Source: Limisphaerales bacterium
GTDB lineage: Bacteria > Verrucomicrobiota > Verrucomicrobiia > Limisphaerales > UBA1100
Assembly (NCBI GenBank): GCA_014382585.1
Contig: JACNJL010000062.1
Location: forward strand, 1-34,825
Reading direction: 5' to 3'
DNA length: 34,825 nucleotides
The translations under genes were made by a program, and so were the position numbers. Every line of letters begins with the position of its first letter. Position 1 is the stretch's first letter. This document shows, in pieces, positions 3,526 through 18,842 of the stretch. Below the pieces are notes generated by a model. The model did not search any database. It worked only from the letters and a program-made list of their open reading frames with translations, and was not told the origin of the DNA.

Positions 3526-6500
3526 ATGGCGCGTAAGGAGGCTCCTAAAAAAACGGATTCCAAAGGAGGTGCCAACGAAGTACTCGGGATAGGGCTGCTG
3601 GCTCTGGCTGTGTTATTTTTGTTGGCGCTGTTTTCCTTTGATAAAGGCGATCTGTCGGTCAACGGCACAAACGTCAACGATCCCCTGCATAATCTTGTGG
3701 GCACGCTCGGGGCGTGGCTGGCGCAGGGCTGCTTTATGGCGCTTGGCGTGGCGGCGTATTTGTTGCCGCCGTTGACGCTGATTTTCGCCATCGCATTTTT
3801 CACCGATAAACTCGACGGCCTGCGACGGCGCTGGCCGTGGGCGGTGGCGTTGGTGTTGGCGGGATCAGCGGGGCTCAGTTTGTATCCCGGCCTCTTTGGC
3901 GGGTTGGCGAAAAGTCTGAACACGGTGGGCGCCGGGGGCTATGTGGGGATGTTGTTGCATAATGGCATTTTTCAACACGTGGGCACGGCGGGTGCCACGG
4001 TGTTATTACTGGCGGTGTACTTGGTGAGCCTGCTTTATCTTACAAATTTTCAGCTCAAAGAATGGGCCAAAACCGCGTGGTCAAAATGGAAGCTGCGCAA
4101 GGTGGATCGCTCACAGCCGCTGGCCAACGAAGAGATCGAGCTGAACCAACGTGAAGCTGAACTGCAACAGCGCGTGGCGGATTTGCAAAAGGAATTGGCC
4201 AACACCGCTCAGACGGTGCCCGCCGTCGTCAACCGCGAAGAGCCAAACATTATCGACCTCAGCCAACCGCAAGCGCGCCCCAAGGCGGCAGTGGCGGATG
4301 AAGAAGCACCGACGGAGTCGCGCCGCAAGTTGGCGGCGATTGTGTTCACTGATATCGTGGATTATTCCAGCCTCTCCAATCGCGATGAAAAAGCGGCGTT
4401 GAAGCTCCTTAAAAAACAACGCCGCTTGCTCAAGCCATTGGTCAAACAATTTGAAGGCGAATGGCTCAAGGAAATTGGCGATGGTTTACTTTTGAGTTTC
4501 GACAGTTCGCTCAGTGCTGTTGAGTGCGCGCTGGCAATTCAGGCGAAGGTGCTTGGCGAGGAGCATCTCGAACTACGCATCGGCATTCATCAGGGCGACG
4601 TCGTTCGTGAAGGTAACGACATCCTGGGCGACGGCGTGAACATCGCCTCGCGCATTGAGGAATACGCGCCGGTCGGTGGCGTGGCGGTTTCCGCAAAAAT
4701 CCAGCAGGACCTCATCAGCCAACCGCAATACGAAGCACGGTTGCTCGGCGAGTTCGTCTTGGAGGGGCTCGCTCAAAAAGTTGAGATTTACACCGTGGCC
4801 GTGGCTGTGGAGGTGTTGCCCGAGACTGTCTTTGAGGACGAAGATCTTACCGCTAATCCGGAAGTGGTGGCAGTGGTGGAATCGGAGCCGGAAGAAAAAG
4901 CCGACCATGCGGTAGCCACTGTGGAGGAAATCCTTGGCGATCCCGAGGACGACACCGAGCCGACGGTGCACATCGCCCCCGCTATTTCCAGCACCGGTCC
5001 CGCTAAATTCAAACGCCCCAAACCCACCGCCGTGGCGCGCGGGCCGCTCATTGAGAATTATAAATTGCCGCCGGTTGAGTATTTGCAAGCGCCGGAATTC
5101 ATCGCCGCGCCCACCGATTCCACCGACGAACTTAAATCCGCCGCCATTACCATTCAGCAAACGCTCAGGCAATTCGGCGTGGAAGTCGCGCTGGGCGACA
5201 TTACCAAAGGGCCCACCATCACCCGTTTCGAGCTGCATCCTGCGCCGGGCGTGAAGATGGAAAAAATCACGACTTACACCAACAACATCACCGCCGCACT
5301 CAAGGCCGAGCGCATCAACATCCTCGCTCCCGTGCCCGGCAAAAGCACGGTGGGCGTCGAGGTGCCCAATCGCGTTAAGACAAAAGTCATTATGCGCGAC
5401 TTACTCGAAAGCGATGAGTGGAAGAAGAGTAAAGCCAAAGTGCCCGTGGCGCTGGGTAAAGATGTTTACGGCAAACCTATCGTGGCGGACCTCGCCGAGA
5501 TGCCGCATCTTTTGATTGCCGGCGCCACCGGCGCGGGTAAGAGCGTGTGTATGAACGGCATCGTCGCCTCATTGCTTTATAAATTTTCGCCGGATGAATT
5601 GCGGCTCGTGATGATCGATCCCAAAGTGGTGGAGTTGCAAATGTACAACACCCTGCCGCACCTCGCGATGCCGGTGGTGACCGATTCGAAAAAAGTCATC
5701 CTCGCGTTGCGCTGGGTGGTTTCGGAAATGGAAAAGCGCTATAAAATTTTTGCGAAGGAAAATGTGAAGAACATCCAATCCTTCAACAAACGCCGCCGCG
5801 ACAAACCGCCCGCCGAGCCGGAGCCGCAGATGACGCTCTTTGATGGTGAGCGCGGCAATTCCGAAGGGTTTGCCGTGGAAATCGATGAGGAAATCGTGGT
5901 GCCACGCGATGAGGAAATCGAAATCCCCGATCGGCTTAGTTATATTGTGGTGGTCATTGACGAGTTGGCCGATCTCATGCTCACCGCGCCGGCCGAGGTG
6001 GAAAACGCCATCGCCCGCATCACCCAAATGGCCCGCGCCGCCGGCATTCATTGCATCGTGGCCACCCAGCGCCCGAGCGTGAAAGTCATCACCGGCGTCA
6101 TCAAAGCCAATATCCCAAGCCGCATTGCATTTCAGGTTGCCTCCAAAATCGATAGCCGCGTGATCCTCGACGAGATGGGCGCGGAGAAACTCTTGGGCAA
6201 AGGCGATATGTTGTATCAACCGCCCGGCGCACCCAAGCCCATCCGTGCGCAAGGGCCGCTGGTTACCGACGAAGAGGTCCAACAAATCGTCAGCTTCATC
6301 ACCGAACAGGGCAAGCCGAAGTTCGAAGTGGACATCACCCAGCAGCTTTCCAAACCCGCTTTGGCCGGCTCGGCCTCCAGCGGTGAGGATGAAGATCTCA
6401 TCGAACAATGCATCGAGGTCATTCGCAGCGAGCAAAAAGCCAGTGTCTCCAAACTGCAACGCCGCCTGCGCCTCGGCTACACCCGCGCCGCGCGCATTAT

Positions 6501-6624
6501 GGACGAGCTTGAAGATCGCGGCATCGTCGGCCCCGCCCAAGGCCACGAGCCCCGCGAAATCCTCATCGACCTCGACGGCAACGGCGCCGACGGTCGAGGC
6601 CAAGGCGTGGCGGAATTGGTTTAG
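3526..6624 (+). CDS. ftsK: FtsK/SpoIIIE DNA translocase with an internal class III adenylate cyclase domain
   Basis: FtsK is the septum-anchored hexameric ATPase that pumps chromosomal DNA during division. In this 1032-aa protein, residues 19-175 hold four hydrophobic segments and ~200-225 a short coiled coil. Residues 266-426 form a complete class III nucleotidyl cyclase domain: KLAAIVFTDIVDYSSL with metal Asp276, Lys315 and Asp319 in KEIGDG, Asp365 in NDILGD (adenine-type), and Asn372/Arg376 in VNIASRI. An acidic linker (427-505) leads to the FtsK alpha domain (from ~506), Walker A GATGAGKS (666-673), Walker B VIDELADLM (810-818), and the gamma winged helix (~956-1025) with LQRRLRLGYTRAARIMDELE. 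Ordinary FtsK proteins are ~750-850 aa and lack the cyclase. The reading frame is continuous and codon use is uniform across the domain boundaries. I know of no described FtsK with this architecture. A cyclic-nucleotide-binding protein is encoded 173 bp downstream. Confidence 0.97.
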   Translation: MARKEAPKKTDSKGGANEVLGIGLLALAVLFLLALFSFDKGDLSVNGTNVNDPLHNLVGTLGAWLAQGCFMALGVAAYLLPPLTLIFAIAFFTDKLDGLRRRWPWAVALVLAGSAGLSLYPGLFGGLAKSLNTVGAGGYVGMLLHNGIFQHVGTAGATVLLLAVYLVSLLYLTNFQLKEWAKTAWSKWKLRKVDRSQPLANEEIELNQREAELQQRVADLQKELANTAQTVPAVVNREEPNIIDLSQPQARPKAAVADEEAPTESRRKLAAIVFTDIVDYSSLSNRDEKAALKLLKKQRRLLKPLVKQFEGEWLKEIGDGLLLSFDSSLSAVECALAIQAKVLGEEHLELRIGIHQGDVVREGNDILGDGVNIASRIEEYAPVGGVAVSAKIQQDLISQPQYEARLLGEFVLEGLAQKVEIYTVAVAVEVLPETVFEDEDLTANPEVVAVVESEPEEKADHAVATVEEILGDPEDDTEPTVHIAPAISSTGPAKFKRPKPTAVARGPLIENYKLPPVEYLQAPEFIAAPTDSTDELKSAAITIQQTLRQFGVEVALGDITKGPTITRFELHPAPGVKMEKITTYTNNITAALKAERINILAPVPGKSTVGVEVPNRVKTKVIMRDLLESDEWKKSKAKVPVALGKDVYGKPIVADLAEMPHLLIAGATGAGKSVCMNGIVASLLYKFSPDELRLVMIDPKVVELQMYNTLPHLAMPVVTDSKKVILALRWVVSEMEKRYKIFAKENVKNIQSFNKRRRDKPPAEPEPQMTLFDGERGNSEGFAVEIDEEIVVPRDEEIEIPDRLSYIVVVIDELADLMLTAPAEVENAIARITQMARAAGIHCIVATQRPSVKVITGVIKANIPSRIAFQVASKIDSRVILDEMGAEKLLGKGDMLYQPPGAPKPIRAQGPLVTDEEVQQIVSFITEQGKPKFEVDITQQLSKPALAGSASSGEDEDLIEQCIEVIRSEQKASVSKLQRRLRLGYTRAARIMDELEDRGIVGPAQGHEPREILIDLDGNGADGRGQGVAELV

Positions 6625-6632
6625 GGGAATGA

Positions 6633-6746
6633 CCAATTCCCCAAAACCCAGGGCCCAAGGAATACCCAAATCCCAACAACCCACTTTCGCGCCTCCTTGG
6701 GATTTGGTCATTGGGATTTCCTTTGGATTTGTGTTTTGGAAATTGG
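6633..6746. repeat. Long imperfect inverted repeat between ftsK and the cNMP-binding gene
   Basis: The left arm (6633-6676, containing CCCAAATCCCAA) and the right arm (6697-6746, containing TTGGGATTTGG and later TTTTGGAAATTGG) pair imperfectly around a ~20-base centre. It fills most of the 173-bp gap after the ftsK stop. In RNA it would form a long stem and could reduce read-through into the next gene. It resembles the low-complexity GGGATTTGGTCATTGGG repeats common in such genomes. Confidence 0.65.
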
Positions 6747-6797
6747 GCCTTCAAAATCCCCTTTCCATCCAACCCTCCTCGGCGTAACTTGCCCGCA

Positions 6798-7508
6798 ATG
6801 GCGATGGCGACGAATCGAACTTACAAGGTGTGGGCCGCGGATGACGTGGTCTACGGCCCCATCGATTTCCCAACGCTCAGCCAATGGATCCGCGAGGTGC
6901 GTGTGACCGATGCGATGTGGCTTTATCTGGAAGACACCGAGCAATGGGCGCGCGCGGGTGATCTGCCGGAGCTCGGCCTGTATTTCGAGAAAGCCGCCGG
7001 CCTGGTGAAGCCCGGCACGATTGTCCACAGCCCGCTCATCCCCGGCGTTCCCGTGGGCACGCTGGAAGGCGTGGAAATTTTCAAGGAAATGACCGACCAA
7101 CAACGCGGCCGCTTTGCTCAAAGCATGGAGGTGCAAAAGTTTGTGAAGTTCGAAATCCTTGTTAACGAAGGCGACGTGGGCGACGCGATGTTTGTGTTGC
7201 TCGAAGGCGTGGTGCGCGTCCGAAAAATGGTGGGCGGCAAGGAAACACCACTTGCCACGCTGAAGGCCGGCGAAGTGTTCGGAGAAATTTCGCTGTTCGA
7301 TCGCGGCAAACGCAGTGCCGACATCGTGGCCAACAGCGATGGCGTGCTGCTCAAAATCGACGCCAAAGAATTCGAGCGCCTCGTGGATCAACAACCCGAA
7401 ATCGCCACCCCCTTCCTCGCCGCCCTCGCCGCCAAAATGTCCACCCGGATGCGCGCGGACAACGAACGGCACAAGAAGGATTTGATTCTGATGCAGTCAA
7501 GCCGGTGA
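6798..7508 (+). CDS. GYF_2 and cyclic-nucleotide-binding domain protein
   Basis: A 236-aa soluble protein. Residues ~8-58 (YKVWAADDVVYGP...AMWLYLEDTEQWARAGDLPEL) match the GYF_2/DUF4339 pattern, a probable protein-interaction module. Residues ~94-205 form a cNMP-binding beta-roll: EILVNEGDVGDAMFVLLEGVV, then the phosphate-binding cassette GEVFGEISLFDRGKRSAD with Gly162, Glu163 and the phosphate-contacting Arg172. There is no DNA-binding HTH after the roll, so it is not a Crp-type regulator; it probably acts through protein contacts. ATG 6798 is chosen because upstream codons lie in a repeat. Its place directly after an FtsK carrying an adenylate cyclase makes it a candidate receptor for that enzyme's product; this link is inference. 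Confidence 0.88.
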   Translation: MAMATNRTYKVWAADDVVYGPIDFPTLSQWIREVRVTDAMWLYLEDTEQWARAGDLPELGLYFEKAAGLVKPGTIVHSPLIPGVPVGTLEGVEIFKEMTDQQRGRFAQSMEVQKFVKFEILVNEGDVGDAMFVLLEGVVRVRKMVGGKETPLATLKAGEVFGEISLFDRGKRSADIVANSDGVLLKIDAKEFERLVDQQPEIATPFLAALAAKMSTRMRADNERHKKDLILMQSSR

Positions 7509-7511
7509 TTT

Positions 7512-7566
7512 GATTTACGAATTACGATTGTTGATTGACGATTAAACCAATCGTCACTCGTAAATC
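7512..7566. terminator. Inverted repeat at convergent gene ends, possible two-way terminator
   Basis: GATTTACGAATTACGATTG (7512-7530) and CAATCGTCACTCGTAAATC (7548-7566) pair at 17 of 19 positions with a 17-base loop. It lies between the stop of the cNMP-binding gene (7508) and the stop of the MBL-fold gene (7568) and fills the gap exactly. No clear U tract follows, so termination is likely but not certain. It may be a repeat element reused for this role. Confidence 0.6.
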
Positions 7567-7567
7567 T

Positions 7568-8356
7568 TCAATCGGAAATTTCAACCAACTGATCGTCTTC
7601 CAAAAACGTCACTTCCATCCCTCCCAATGCCTCGGCGGCTTGGGTTTTTAGGGCTTCGAGATTTTCGCGGTGTTGGCGGGAGAGGTGGGTGAAACAGACG
7701 TGGCCGATTTTTTTGGTGGCGAGGAGGGCGAAGAGTTCGGTGGGTTCCACGTGGGCGAGTTCGCAGCAGAATAAATCCAGCGGCTGGGCGAGCAACGGCT
7801 CGAGGTCGGTGGCCGCGCCGATGTCGCCACTGTGGGCGATGCGGGTGTCTTCGGTTTCCAAAATAAAACTGAACGCTTCAAAGCCTTGCGGATATTTTTC
7901 CTGAAAATGCTGGCGCAACGTTTCGAGGTGGGTGGTGGGGTGCGGCGTGATTTTTATGGGGCCAATGTGCAATGGCTCGTTGGCGGTGAGCGGGGCGAAG
8001 TCCAGCGCGGCGGGCATCAACTCGCGGAAAATAAATGCGGCATCGAGCATCCGGCGCACGGGCTCGAGGCCTTCGGCGGGCATATGCACGGTCAAATCCC
8101 GCGTGCGTTTCTCGAGCCAAAACCCCTGCATCAACATGAAAAAACCGCCAATGTGATCGCAGTGCAGATGGGTCAGCAAAATGCCATCGAGATCATCGGG
8201 CGCAATGCCGGCGGCACGCAGACGGCGGCTCACCGGCTCGCCGCAATCGATCAGCAGCGTGCGTCCGCCCAGCCGGTACACGAACGCCGAATGCCCGCGC
8301 GAATCGCCGGCCCAGCCATCGCCGGTGCCCAGCGCGTGAAGAGTTGCCTTGCTCAC
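7568..8356 (-). CDS. MBL-fold hydrolase, ribonuclease Z-like
   Basis: A 262-aa metallo-beta-lactamase-fold protein. It has LLIDCGEPV (~residues 34-42), the zinc motif THLHCDHIGG (His63, His65, Asp67, His68), a second metal site around SGDIGAATDL, and a distal FTHLSRQH histidine segment. This arrangement fits the RNase Z/ElaC branch, which trims tRNA 3' ends, although the protein is shorter than bona fide RNase Z (~300 aa) and the exosite is not evident. The start is GTG at 8356. A tRNA-processing role is likely but another phosphodiesterase role is possible. Confidence 0.78.
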   Translation of the reverse strand: MSKATLHALGTGDGWAGDSRGHSAFVYRLGGRTLLIDCGEPVSRRLRAAGIAPDDLDGILLTHLHCDHIGGFFMLMQGFWLEKRTRDLTVHMPAEGLEPVRRMLDAAFIFRELMPAALDFAPLTANEPLHIGPIKITPHPTTHLETLRQHFQEKYPQGFEAFSFILETEDTRIAHSGDIGAATDLEPLLAQPLDLFCCELAHVEPTELFALLATKKIGHVCFTHLSRQHRENLEALKTQAAEALGGMEVTFLEDDQLVEISD

Positions 8357-8487: not shown

Positions 8488-8985
8488 ATGGCAACGGTGG
8501 CCGAACAACTCAAAGACGCACGCGAAGCGAAGGGCTTGGCGCTGGCGGAGGTGGTGGAGCTCACTCAGCTCAAGACCGACCAAGTGCAGGCGCTGGAAAG
8601 CGGCCGTTATGAGGAATTCGCCGCGACGGCGTACGTGCGCGGCTTCGTGCGCAGCTACGCGAATATGCTGAAGCTGGACACGGAAGCGCTGCTCGAACAG
8701 CTGAATGTTGAGATGGGCCAAGCCCGCGAAGGCCAGCCCGACGGCAGCAACGCTGCTCTGCGCGCGGGGATTCTCGATGCCATAATGCTCTCCTTCTCGC
8801 GCGTGAACTGGCGGCTTGTGTTGCCGGTGTTTGCGTTTGTCGCTCTTGCCGCCGGCATTTTTTATGGCGTCAAATGGAAACGCGAGTTCGACAGCACTGA
8901 TCATTTGAAAAATATCGGCCCCGGCCTGTACGCGCCTGATGCCACTTCGGATGCGGATTTGCTTCCGCTTGATTCCGGCTCTTGA
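8488..8985 (+). CDS. RodZ-like HTH membrane protein, short form
   Basis: A 165-aa protein with an N-terminal HTH_25 domain (residues ~3-70: VAEQLKDAREAKGLALAEVVELTQLKTDQVQALESGRYEEF followed by AYVRGFVRSYANML), the hallmark of RodZ, which links MreB to the cell envelope. A single hydrophobic helix follows at ~110-130 (LVLPVFAFVALAAGIFYGV). Only ~35 residues come after the membrane span, so the periplasmic beta domain of canonical RodZ is absent. rimO follows directly. A cell-shape role is an inference from the domain; the HTH might instead bind the palindrome upstream. Confidence 0.8.
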   Translation: MATVAEQLKDAREAKGLALAEVVELTQLKTDQVQALESGRYEEFAATAYVRGFVRSYANMLKLDTEALLEQLNVEMGQAREGQPDGSNAALRAGILDAIMLSFSRVNWRLVLPVFAFVALAAGIFYGVKWKREFDSTDHLKNIGPGLYAPDATSDADLLPLDSGS

Positions 8986-16624: not shown

Positions 16625-17157
16625 TCCACGTCGGCGTCTTCGCGCGACACGATGGAGATGGACATCACGTCCTGCCGGTCCTCGGGGCGACTGCCTTCGC
16701 CGCCGCCGCCGCACGGCACTTCGCCGAGCGTTTCCAGCACGTCCATCCCGCTGATGAGTTCGCCGAAGCAGGTGTATTCGCCATCCAAAAAACTGGCGGC
16801 CTTGAGGCAAATGAAAAACTGGCTGCCGGCTGAGTTGGGATCGCTGGAACGCGCCATCGAGATGACGCCCTTCACGTGCGGGCGATCGCTGAATTCCGCA
16901 TCAATTTGGTAGCCCGGATTGCCGGTGCCCCATTCGTCTTCCCGCGCGGGGTCTTTGGTGTTCGGGTCGCCGCCCTGAATCATAAACCCCTTCACGATGC
17001 GATGGAAACACGTGCCGTCATAAAACGATTTGTTCGCCAGCTTCTTAAAATTCGCTACCGTCTCCGGCGCCACATCGTCCCAAAGTTCCACTACCATTTC
17101 GCCTTGGCTCGTGCTGATCACAGCCACCTCATCCATTTCATCAATTGAATCGTCCAT
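16621..17157 (-). CDS. Cyclophilin-type peptidyl-prolyl isomerase, cytoplasmic
   Basis: Catalyses cis-trans isomerisation of X-Pro bonds. The 178-aa protein has no signal peptide, so it acts in the cytoplasm. The cyclophilin core is clear: DVAPETVANFKKLA, FYDGTCFHRIVKGFMIQGGDP, a GVISMARSSDPNSAGSQFF segment and the late FGELISGMDVLETL. A short Gly-rich loop (CGGGGEG) precedes the C terminus. I use ATG 17157; an upstream TTG at 17229 would add 24 residues without family support. It is transcribed away from the cyclophilin-FKBP lipoprotein gene 92 bp off, so two prolyl isomerases share a promoter region. Confidence 0.92.
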   Translation of the reverse strand: MDDSIDEMDEVAVISTSQGEMVVELWDDVAPETVANFKKLANKSFYDGTCFHRIVKGFMIQGGDPNTKDPAREDEWGTGNPGYQIDAEFSDRPHVKGVISMARSSDPNSAGSQFFICLKAASFLDGEYTCFGELISGMDVLETLGEVPCGGGGEGSRPEDRQDVMSISIVSREDADVE

Positions 17158-17249
17158 CGGCGGCAACCTGCGATGCCGCGCCCGATTTGTCACGCCAAAA
17201 CACAAAAAAGGCTCGCCTATTCCCGCCAATCCGCTTTGATGGAGCCGCT

Positions 17250-18842
17250 ATGCATACCCCGTTTCTAAAACCTCTGGGCACCGCCGTTTTGGCCGTGCTG
17301 GCGTTTTCACTGCTCACCGGCTGCGGCCAACAGGATACTGCCGCAGCAACCGGCCCCGAAACCTCGGCCCCGATCACCATCGCGCCGGTTAAGCCCGAGC
17401 CCGTGGCCAATATTCCGTTGCCTGCGGAACCGGCCAAAGCGGATTTGGGCGATGGTCTTTATGCGGAATTCACTACTACCAAAGGCACCATCATCGCGCT
17501 GCTGGAGTTTGAGAAAACGCCCGTGACCGTCGCCAGCTTCGTGGGTCTCGCCGAGGGCACCAAGGATTTTGCCAATCGCCCGAAGGGCAAGCCCTATTAT
17601 GACGGACTCAATTTCCATCGTGTGATTCCGGATTTTATGATCCAAGGCGGTTGCCCGAAAGGCACGGGAGGCAGCGGCCCCGGCTATAATTTTGCGGATG
17701 AAACGCGCAAGGATCTCACCCACAAAAGCGCCGGCATCCTTTCAATGGCCAACTCCGATCCTCAAGGATCAAAGGCCCCGTACTCCAACGGCGGCAGCTC
17801 CAACGGCAGCCAGTTTTTCATCACCCACCGCGCCACGCCGCATCTTGACGGATTGCACACCGTGTTTGGCCACGTGGTCATCGGGCAAGCCGTGGTTAAT
17901 GCCATTGTGAAAGGCGATAAAATCAATAGCCTCAAACTCATCCGCAACGGCGCGGCGGCTACGGCGTTTAAAGTGGACGAAGCCGGTTTCAAAAAAATTA
18001 AGGAAGAAAAACAAAAATCCAAACTAGCGAAATTTGAAGAACGCATGAAAAAAGACACCGAACAATCAGACGCGCTGCTTGCCGGCCTCAAGGAAAAACA
18101 CAAAGCCGAAGTGGTCACCACGAAGACCGGCTTGCGCTACATCATTACCCAGCCCGGCGAAGGCGAAGTTCCCGTCGAAGGCGACAAGCTGACGCTGAAT
18201 CTGAAATTCACATTAGCCGATGGAACCGTCATTGATGATTCCAGCAAAAACGAAGATCCCCTCGTTATTCCCGTGGGTGAGAATTTGCGGCTGGATGGTT
18301 TGACCGAAGGAATTACCGGAATGAAAAAAGGCGAACACCGCACACTCGTCATCCCGCATAAGCTCGGTTTTGGCGAATCCGGCGCAGGCGATAAAATTCC
18401 ACCCTTTGCTACGCTGGTTTTTCAGTTGGAAATCACCGACGTGAAGTCCGATAAAAAACTCATCGAAGCCCTCATTGCCAAGCTCAAAAAAGATCATCCC
18501 AAAGCCAAACTCGTCACCACCAAATCCGGCCTGCGCTACGTGGTGACTCAAGCCGGCGCAGGGGCAAAAGTCGGCAACGGCAAAAAAATTAAAGCGCACT
18601 ACACCGGTCAGTTTCTTGATGGAAAGGTATTCGATAGCTCCGTAAAACGCGGCGAGCCGCTAGAATTTGTCGTCGGCACTGGCCAAGTGATCAAGGGGTG
18701 GGACGAGGCATTGTCGGACATGAAAAAGGGCGAGAAACGCGTTCTAATTATCCCGCATCAACTAGCCTACGGCGAACGCGGTCGCGGCCCCATCCCGCCC
18801 GCCTCCACGCTGGTATTCGACGTGGAATTGGTGGATTTTTAA
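17250..18842 (+). CDS. Lipoprotein with one cyclophilin and two FKBP domains
   Basis: A 530-aa envelope prolyl isomerase. The signal peptide ends in a lipobox (LLTGC, Cys ~26), followed by a Pro/Ala-rich linker. The cyclophilin domain spans ~70-245 (FHRVIPDFMIQGG, SNGSQFFITH, HLDGLHTVFGHV). A Lys/Glu-rich helical linker (~250-288) leads to two FKBP domains at ~290-395 and ~422-530. The last is canonical (HYTGQF, VFDSS, VIKGWDEAL, IPPASTLVFDVEL). The first lacks the aromatic pocket: LKF replaces YTG, VIDDSS replaces VFDSS, and DGLTEGI replaces the GWDEAL tryptophan, so it is probably a non-catalytic, substrate-holding domain. ATG 17250 is chosen because it places the signal peptide at the N terminus. 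A good terminator follows. Confidence 0.93.
   Translation: MHTPFLKPLGTAVLAVLAFSLLTGCGQQDTAAATGPETSAPITIAPVKPEPVANIPLPAEPAKADLGDGLYAEFTTTKGTIIALLEFEKTPVTVASFVGLAEGTKDFANRPKGKPYYDGLNFHRVIPDFMIQGGCPKGTGGSGPGYNFADETRKDLTHKSAGILSMANSDPQGSKAPYSNGGSSNGSQFFITHRATPHLDGLHTVFGHVVIGQAVVNAIVKGDKINSLKLIRNGAAATAFKVDEAGFKKIKEEKQKSKLAKFEERMKKDTEQSDALLAGLKEKHKAEVVTTKTGLRYIITQPGEGEVPVEGDKLTLNLKFTLADGTVIDDSSKNEDPLVIPVGENLRLDGLTEGITGMKKGEHRTLVIPHKLGFGESGAGDKIPPFATLVFQLEITDVKSDKKLIEALIAKLKKDHPKAKLVTTKSGLRYVVTQAGAGAKVGNGKKIKAHYTGQFLDGKVFDSSVKRGEPLEFVVGTGQVIKGWDEALSDMKKGEKRVLIIPHQLAYGERGRGPIPPASTLVFDVELVDF

Follow-up and report, generated by a model that had tools for sequence, protein, structure and literature searches.

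We found that, within a single family of marine Verrucomicrobiota, the gene directly behind ftsK encodes a candidate cyclic-nucleotide receptor with no match to any DNA-binding domain, and that FtsK itself carries an embedded class III cyclase domain. The window in which we describe the pair is the whole stretch of DNA analyzed (34,825 nt of contig JACNJL010000062.1 from a Limisphaerales bacterium). In all 19 genomes that carry the FtsK-cyclase, spread over five genera, the receptor gene lies directly downstream from it on the same strand. A cyclase in the DNA pump of division, together with an adjoining sensor that does not bind DNA, suggests that division state is turned into a small-molecule signal. 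Our preferred reading is that FtsK captured an adenylyl-cyclase domain and that the receptor was recruited beside this FtsK and is functionally coupled to it; we give this reading an even chance of being right.

FtsK carries a predicted adenylyl cyclase

The ftsK gene of the window (3526–6624, forward strand) encodes a protein of 1032 aa whose 4TM, alpha, motor, and gamma domains all scored above the Pfam cut-off with hmmscan. A class III cyclase domain (PF00211; 48.7 bits against a cut-off of 21.9) occupies aa 270–424 (4333–4797, forward strand) of the cytoplasmic linker, between the 4TM region and the alpha domain. Its six catalytic residues (D276, K315, D319, D365, N372, and R376) were invariant among 15 FtsK cyclases of the family. 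From the known positions of class III cyclases, we take D276 and D319 to be the metal ligands and K315 and D365 to be the adenine-type pair, with N372 and R376 completing the set. Because these residues are intact and invariant, we predict that the insert is an active enzyme of the adenylyl-cyclase type, working as a dimer.

The cyclase is preceded in FtsK by a linker motif, P-x-[IV]-[IVR]-D-L-S, and followed by a second one, ATxxEILG. We considered these motifs as a pair-specific ligand of the receptor's GYF_2 domain and rejected the idea, as they also occur in 17/20 and 8/20 cyclase-less FtsKs of the order, respectively; they are therefore old FtsK motifs and no trace of the ftsK–receptor pair. 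The cyclase was inserted between the two, and the motifs are possible docking sites for the receptor's GYF_2 domain.

The matches listed for the order (320 genomes) showed FtsK alignments spanning the cyclase in the window's family alone; those outside it covered the 4TM part and resumed at about aa 420–500. We found no FtsK-cyclase fusion elsewhere in the phylum in 145 genomes at E ≤ 1e-110, a threshold so strict that this null result says little. A scan of GTDB placed five of the best 80 relatives of the cyclase domain in FtsK; all five are from Verrucomicrobiota metagenome-assembled genomes, each of which also has the receptor and the MBL-fold gene described below. In a phylogenetic tree, the FtsK cyclases had a single origin (support 100/99), with a group rich in Neomarinimicrobiota lying near their clade. 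Their sister group comprised soluble class III cyclases of Verrucomicrobiota with kinase, WD40, or TPR parts, whereas the cyclase of the window sits within an FtsK linker.

The adjoining gene encodes a CRP-like receptor candidate

The receptor gene (6798–7508, forward strand) runs from an ATG at 6798 to a stop at 7508 and encodes 236 aa. The sequence-only reading had described its product as a cNMP-binding roll with an intact phosphate-binding cassette and no DNA-binding domain, joined to a GYF_2 domain. This description held. For the roll, aa 113–198 (7134–7391, forward strand) matched PF00027 cNMP_binding in hmmscan (E 4.8e-22; 78.2 bits against a cut-off of 27.5), as did all 35 homologs of the receptor. 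The cassette FGEISLFDRGKRSA (aa 161–174; 7278–7319, forward strand) is kept in these homologs, with Gly162 and Arg172 invariant and Glu163 conserved at 90% or more. We also found no match to HTH or other DNA-binding Pfam models anywhere in the protein. A long helix resembling the C-helix of CRP (aa 200–235; 7395–7502, forward strand; AlphaFold model and Foldseek) ends the chain, with no C-terminal HTH of the CRP/FNR transcription-factor kind behind it.

The match of aa 15–59 to PF14237 GYF_2 (E 6e-4; 19.9 bits) falls under the Pfam cut-off of 25.8 in the window protein itself, but 30 of the 35 homologs matched the model at E ≤ 0.01 (best E 4e-7), and the AlphaFold model gave the domain the order beta-beta-alpha-beta-beta. 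In the alignment of the 35 homologs, a GYF-like GP...W pattern was family-wide, with G20, P21, and W30 invariant. We refer to aa 8–67 (6819–6998, forward strand) as a GYF_2-like domain; it has YGP at aa 19–21, and R35, W41, and W50 are invariant as well.

In the AlphaFold model of the whole receptor (pLDDT 84, pTM 0.67), the GYF-like domain is followed by a low-confidence joint at about aa 70–76, the roll, and the terminal helix. The best Foldseek matches were all CRP-type: 2pqq, Thermus CAP, GlxR, Mycobacterium tuberculosis CRP, and Escherichia coli CRP. The receptor shares the cNMP roll, the phosphate cassette, and a long dimerization-type C-helix with CRP/FNR-type receptors (E. coli CRP, GlxR, the Streptomyces 2pqq domain), but it has an N-terminal GYF_2-like domain and lacks the HTH DNA-binding domain. 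Regulatory domains of PKA and PKG, found as PDB sequence matches, have the roll and cassette in common with it, whereas the receptor is bacterial, has a single roll, and carries no kinase. Within the window's genus its dN/dS is ∼0.07, and it is under purifying selection. By its domains and intact motifs, the protein is a candidate CRP-like, non-transcriptional cNMP receptor.

A cyclase beside a cNMP-binding partner is also the layout of Pycsar antiphage defense, in which the partner is a cNMP-gated effector, and the PADLOC models PycTIR and PycC did match the receptor's roll and, weakly, the FtsK cyclase. These matches, however, span the shared cNMP fold only. Neither a TIR nor a transmembrane killing domain is present in the receptor, GYF_2 and cNMP being the only Pfam models that match it, and the cyclase sits in a core division gene within a vertically inherited housekeeping block that bears no sign of mobility. 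A Pycsar-like role is therefore highly improbable in our view, and we dropped Pycsar membership, the matches being at the level of the fold and the toxic effector domain absent. A phage origin was likewise dropped, as it had a single weak match.

The pair is kept wherever the fusion occurs

We compared gene neighborhoods in a family sample of 20 genomes from five genera of marine Verrucomicrobiota and in an order sample of 320 genomes. The FtsK-cyclase was present in 19 of the 20 family genomes; the twentieth, which is 50% complete, had neither the FtsK-cyclase nor the receptor. The sequence-only reading had named conservation of the pair alongside the fusion as its own test, and the pair came through in every fusion genome: 16 pairs lay on one contig, and in the other three ftsK was broken at the contig end, with the receptor beside its C-terminal piece. 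Outside the family the picture was different. A receptor match at E ≤ 1e-38 was found in 164 of the 320 order genomes, and among the 82 nonfamily genomes in which both genes were located the receptor adjoined ftsK in none, a count in which contig breaks could conceal an odd case. The two genes were on different contigs in all of these 82 save two, where they were 78 kb and 2.9 Mb apart.

The gap between ftsK and the receptor measures ∼50–60 bp in most members and up to ∼110 bp in a few; the window and two close relatives have 151–173 bp. In the window it is 173 bp long (6625–6797), and a simple scan of it detected neither promoter-like nor terminator-like sites. The gaps of these three, ∼110 bp longer than those of other members, contain palindrome-like text (CCAAATCCCAA...TTGGGATTTGG); loose repeats unlike this text occur at 7510–7565.

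Genes upstream of ftsK were reordered between genera (L068, L070, and L072 compared with the window), with ftsK–receptor–MBL unchanged. Downstream, the MBL-fold and RodZ genes were retained in the family nearly as consistently as the receptor; the RodZ-like gene (8488–8985, forward strand; identified by Pfam and neighborhood comparison) adjoins ftsK in parts of the order. In a tree, the receptors of the family formed one clade (support 98/91), and their nearest sampled sister was G026 (branch 97/92), whose locus reads ftsK–rodZ–rimO–pgsA with no cyclase, receptor, or MBL gene there. Similarly, locus L086 has rodZ behind ftsK, without the receptor or the MBL gene.

Since the cyclase has a single origin, the family receptors form one clade, and the sister lineage has ftsK–rodZ without either, the capture of the cyclase by FtsK and the move of the receptor behind ftsK fall on the same branch, and the MBL gene joined the locus on that branch too. 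The receptor itself is an old, order-wide protein that predates the fusion. Its presence across the order without an FtsK-cyclase implies that its basic role is independent of that enzyme. The ftsK–receptor association arose once, so it counts as one evolutionary observation and carries no statistics.

This history leaves room for an accident of synteny, in which the receptor landed behind ftsK in the family ancestor, stayed there only because the ftsK–receptor–MBL–rodZ block seldom rearranges, and senses the general cAMP pool, whichever cyclase supplies it. Its age and order-wide spread and the further cyclases in most family genomes are in line with such an accident, and because the MBL and RodZ genes were also retained, part of the receptor's retention could be synteny inertia. 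We nevertheless consider the accident fairly unlikely: gene order upstream of ftsK varies between the genera named above while ftsK–receptor–MBL stays constant, the co-directional gap is short in most members, and cyclase capture and receptor relocation share one branch.

An MBL-fold hydrolase gene at the same locus

The gene pair is part of the change at this locus, where the gene for an MBL-fold hydrolase, which may be a phosphodiesterase, arrived as well. This gene (7568–8356, reverse strand) is convergent with the receptor gene, and by Pfam, PDB matches, and models its product has a core like that of RNase Z, YhfI, Apyc1, and arylsulfatase. It adjoined the receptor in 19/19 fusion genomes, and most members of the genera other than the window's have the two overlapping or within 15 bp of each other. 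In the sampled other families of the order we found a homolog in 11 genomes, in none of them on the receptor's contig. The metal ligands of the protein (H63, H65, D67, and H68 of the HxHxDH motif, and H143, D178, and H224) are all conserved, and its structural model has a pLDDT of 93.5.

The closest fold was that of arylsulfatase 8gyg, followed by RNase Z, YhfI, and Apyc1, and the PDB matches included three Apyc1 structures and YhfI. Against family models, the MBL protein scored under the cut-off each time: 35.5 against 50 for PF23023, 23.2 against 400 for the NCBIfam cNMP-phosphodiesterase model NF041851, and 76.9 against 292.95 for the RNase Z model TIGR02651, where the best stretch covered no more than the first 103 of its 302 positions. 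None of the 20 family genomes yielded an RNase Z scoring above the TIGR02651 cut-off, and in most of them the MBL gene gave the best partial match, so the MBL protein could be an RNase Z substitute. At the site of the tRNA-binding flexible arm of RNase Z, it has 35 residues from the motif-III His (H143) to the motif-IV Asp (D178); Bacillus subtilis RNase Z has about 71 between the two. YhfI and Apyc1 hydrolyze cyclic mononucleotides, and YhfI prefers cAMP/cGMP (PMC9117128). With these class II cNMP phosphodiesterases the MBL protein shares the fold with HxHxDH and the short core, but it scores under the family cut-offs. It is a possible cNMP phosphodiesterase, on weak evidence.

If it is one, our preferred reading could be extended, rather than replaced, by a cassette in which the FtsK assembly writes, the GYF_2 receptor reads by protein contacts, and the MBL protein erases, giving a chemical report of chromosome translocation or septum assembly. 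The Apyc1 and YhfI matches with their known activity argue for such a cassette, as does an MBL gene that lies beside the receptor throughout the fusion genomes and, in other families, is missing or located elsewhere. The best structural match is an arylsulfatase, however, and RNase Z scores at least as high as YhfI; together with the subthreshold family scores and the possible RNase Z role, these make the cassette improbable in our judgment.

Other cyclases and cNMP readers in the family

Family genomes encode one to four PF00211 proteins, FtsK always among them. The usual second one was a HAMP-cyclase in the two cases examined, and some genomes also have a cyclase bearing kinase, WD40, or TPR parts. 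The PF00027 proteins always include the receptor; others are a ∼500-aa protein in many genomes and a small protein beside a cyclase in some. In three genomes that are 90%–95% complete (G007, G008, and G011), the receptor was the sole PF00027 match at E ≤ 1e-5. If these signal by cAMP via a PF00027 domain, the receptor would be the reader, and there it must read the second cyclase as well as FtsK.

We noted several further proteins of this kind. The window's own genome (G000) encodes an MscS-type channel whose C terminus carries a cNMP-binding domain (L214:903-2408), a second possible cAMP reader. At L216:3-6765 and L217:927-3430, the family has second cyclase–receptor arrangements, in which soluble kinase-FHA, WD40, or TPR cyclases adjoin small stand-alone cNMP-binding proteins. 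Two 151-aa frames with equal scores (G021:C148:3095-3517 and G021:C26:8-430) correspond to the cNMP part of the receptor without GYF_2; one is at a contig start, and they are perhaps a duplicated or assembly-cut gene.

A possible route from FtsK assembly to a nucleotide signal

If the recruited receptor is functionally coupled with FtsK, the following scheme would apply. FtsK forms oligomers by way of its membrane and motor regions, and a class III cyclase requires two domains to build an active site. FtsK assembling at the septum would thus pair the cyclase domains, and cAMP would be made. The receptor would dimerize by its long C-helix and bind cAMP in its intact cassette; binding would reposition the GYF_2 domains such that a partner protein is bound or released, and the convergent MBL hydrolase may clear the signal. 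Catalysis, the ligand, oligomer-gated activity, and the GYF_2 partner are the parts of this scheme that we infer.

To the sequence-only reading, a cyclase and a cyclic-nucleotide receptor side by side had suggested a local signaling circuit at the division site. The two do stand side by side, with the six catalytic residues and the ligand-binding motif intact. The local circuit is the weakest step of that reading: a receptor that predates the fusion, a second cyclase in most genomes (HAMP-type where examined), and the free diffusion of cAMP argue against a dedicated, septum-local circuit. With a diffusion coefficient of some hundreds of square micrometers per second, cAMP crosses a 1-µm cell in a few milliseconds by our own estimate; given this fast spread, a signal could stay local only if tightly tethered and rapidly hydrolyzed. 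It is easier to defend, and more likely, that the output informs the whole cell about the state of the divisome or translocase than that the circuit is strictly local.

Each of the domains involved was already known; the non-transcriptional GYF_2–CRP architecture, proposed to be coupled to a cyclase inside FtsK, did not appear in the literature searched. Our literature search returned no description of FtsK with an adenylate cyclase domain, of cyclic AMP with FtsK and the septum, or of GYF/GYF_2 (DUF4339) joined to cyclic nucleotide-binding; several of the hits seem to concern adenylate cyclase as a two-hybrid tool. To our knowledge, no core divisome protein is known as the source of a bacterial second messenger, and the searched literature contained no such case. 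Should the cyclase borne by FtsK be active, FtsK assembly or translocation would be reported by a nucleotide signal, for which the adjoining non-transcriptional receptor would be the reader. The pair offers two small expressible proteins with clear point mutants (a metal Asp of the cyclase and Arg172 of the receptor) for asking whether cAMP signals division state. More broadly, the wide GYF_2–cNMP family in Verrucomicrobiota, of which we found no study, is a likely class of cyclic-nucleotide effectors.

Finally, we noted a single ORF elsewhere in the window (17145–18842) that combines a cyclophilin domain with FKBP domains and so unites two types of prolyl isomerase.
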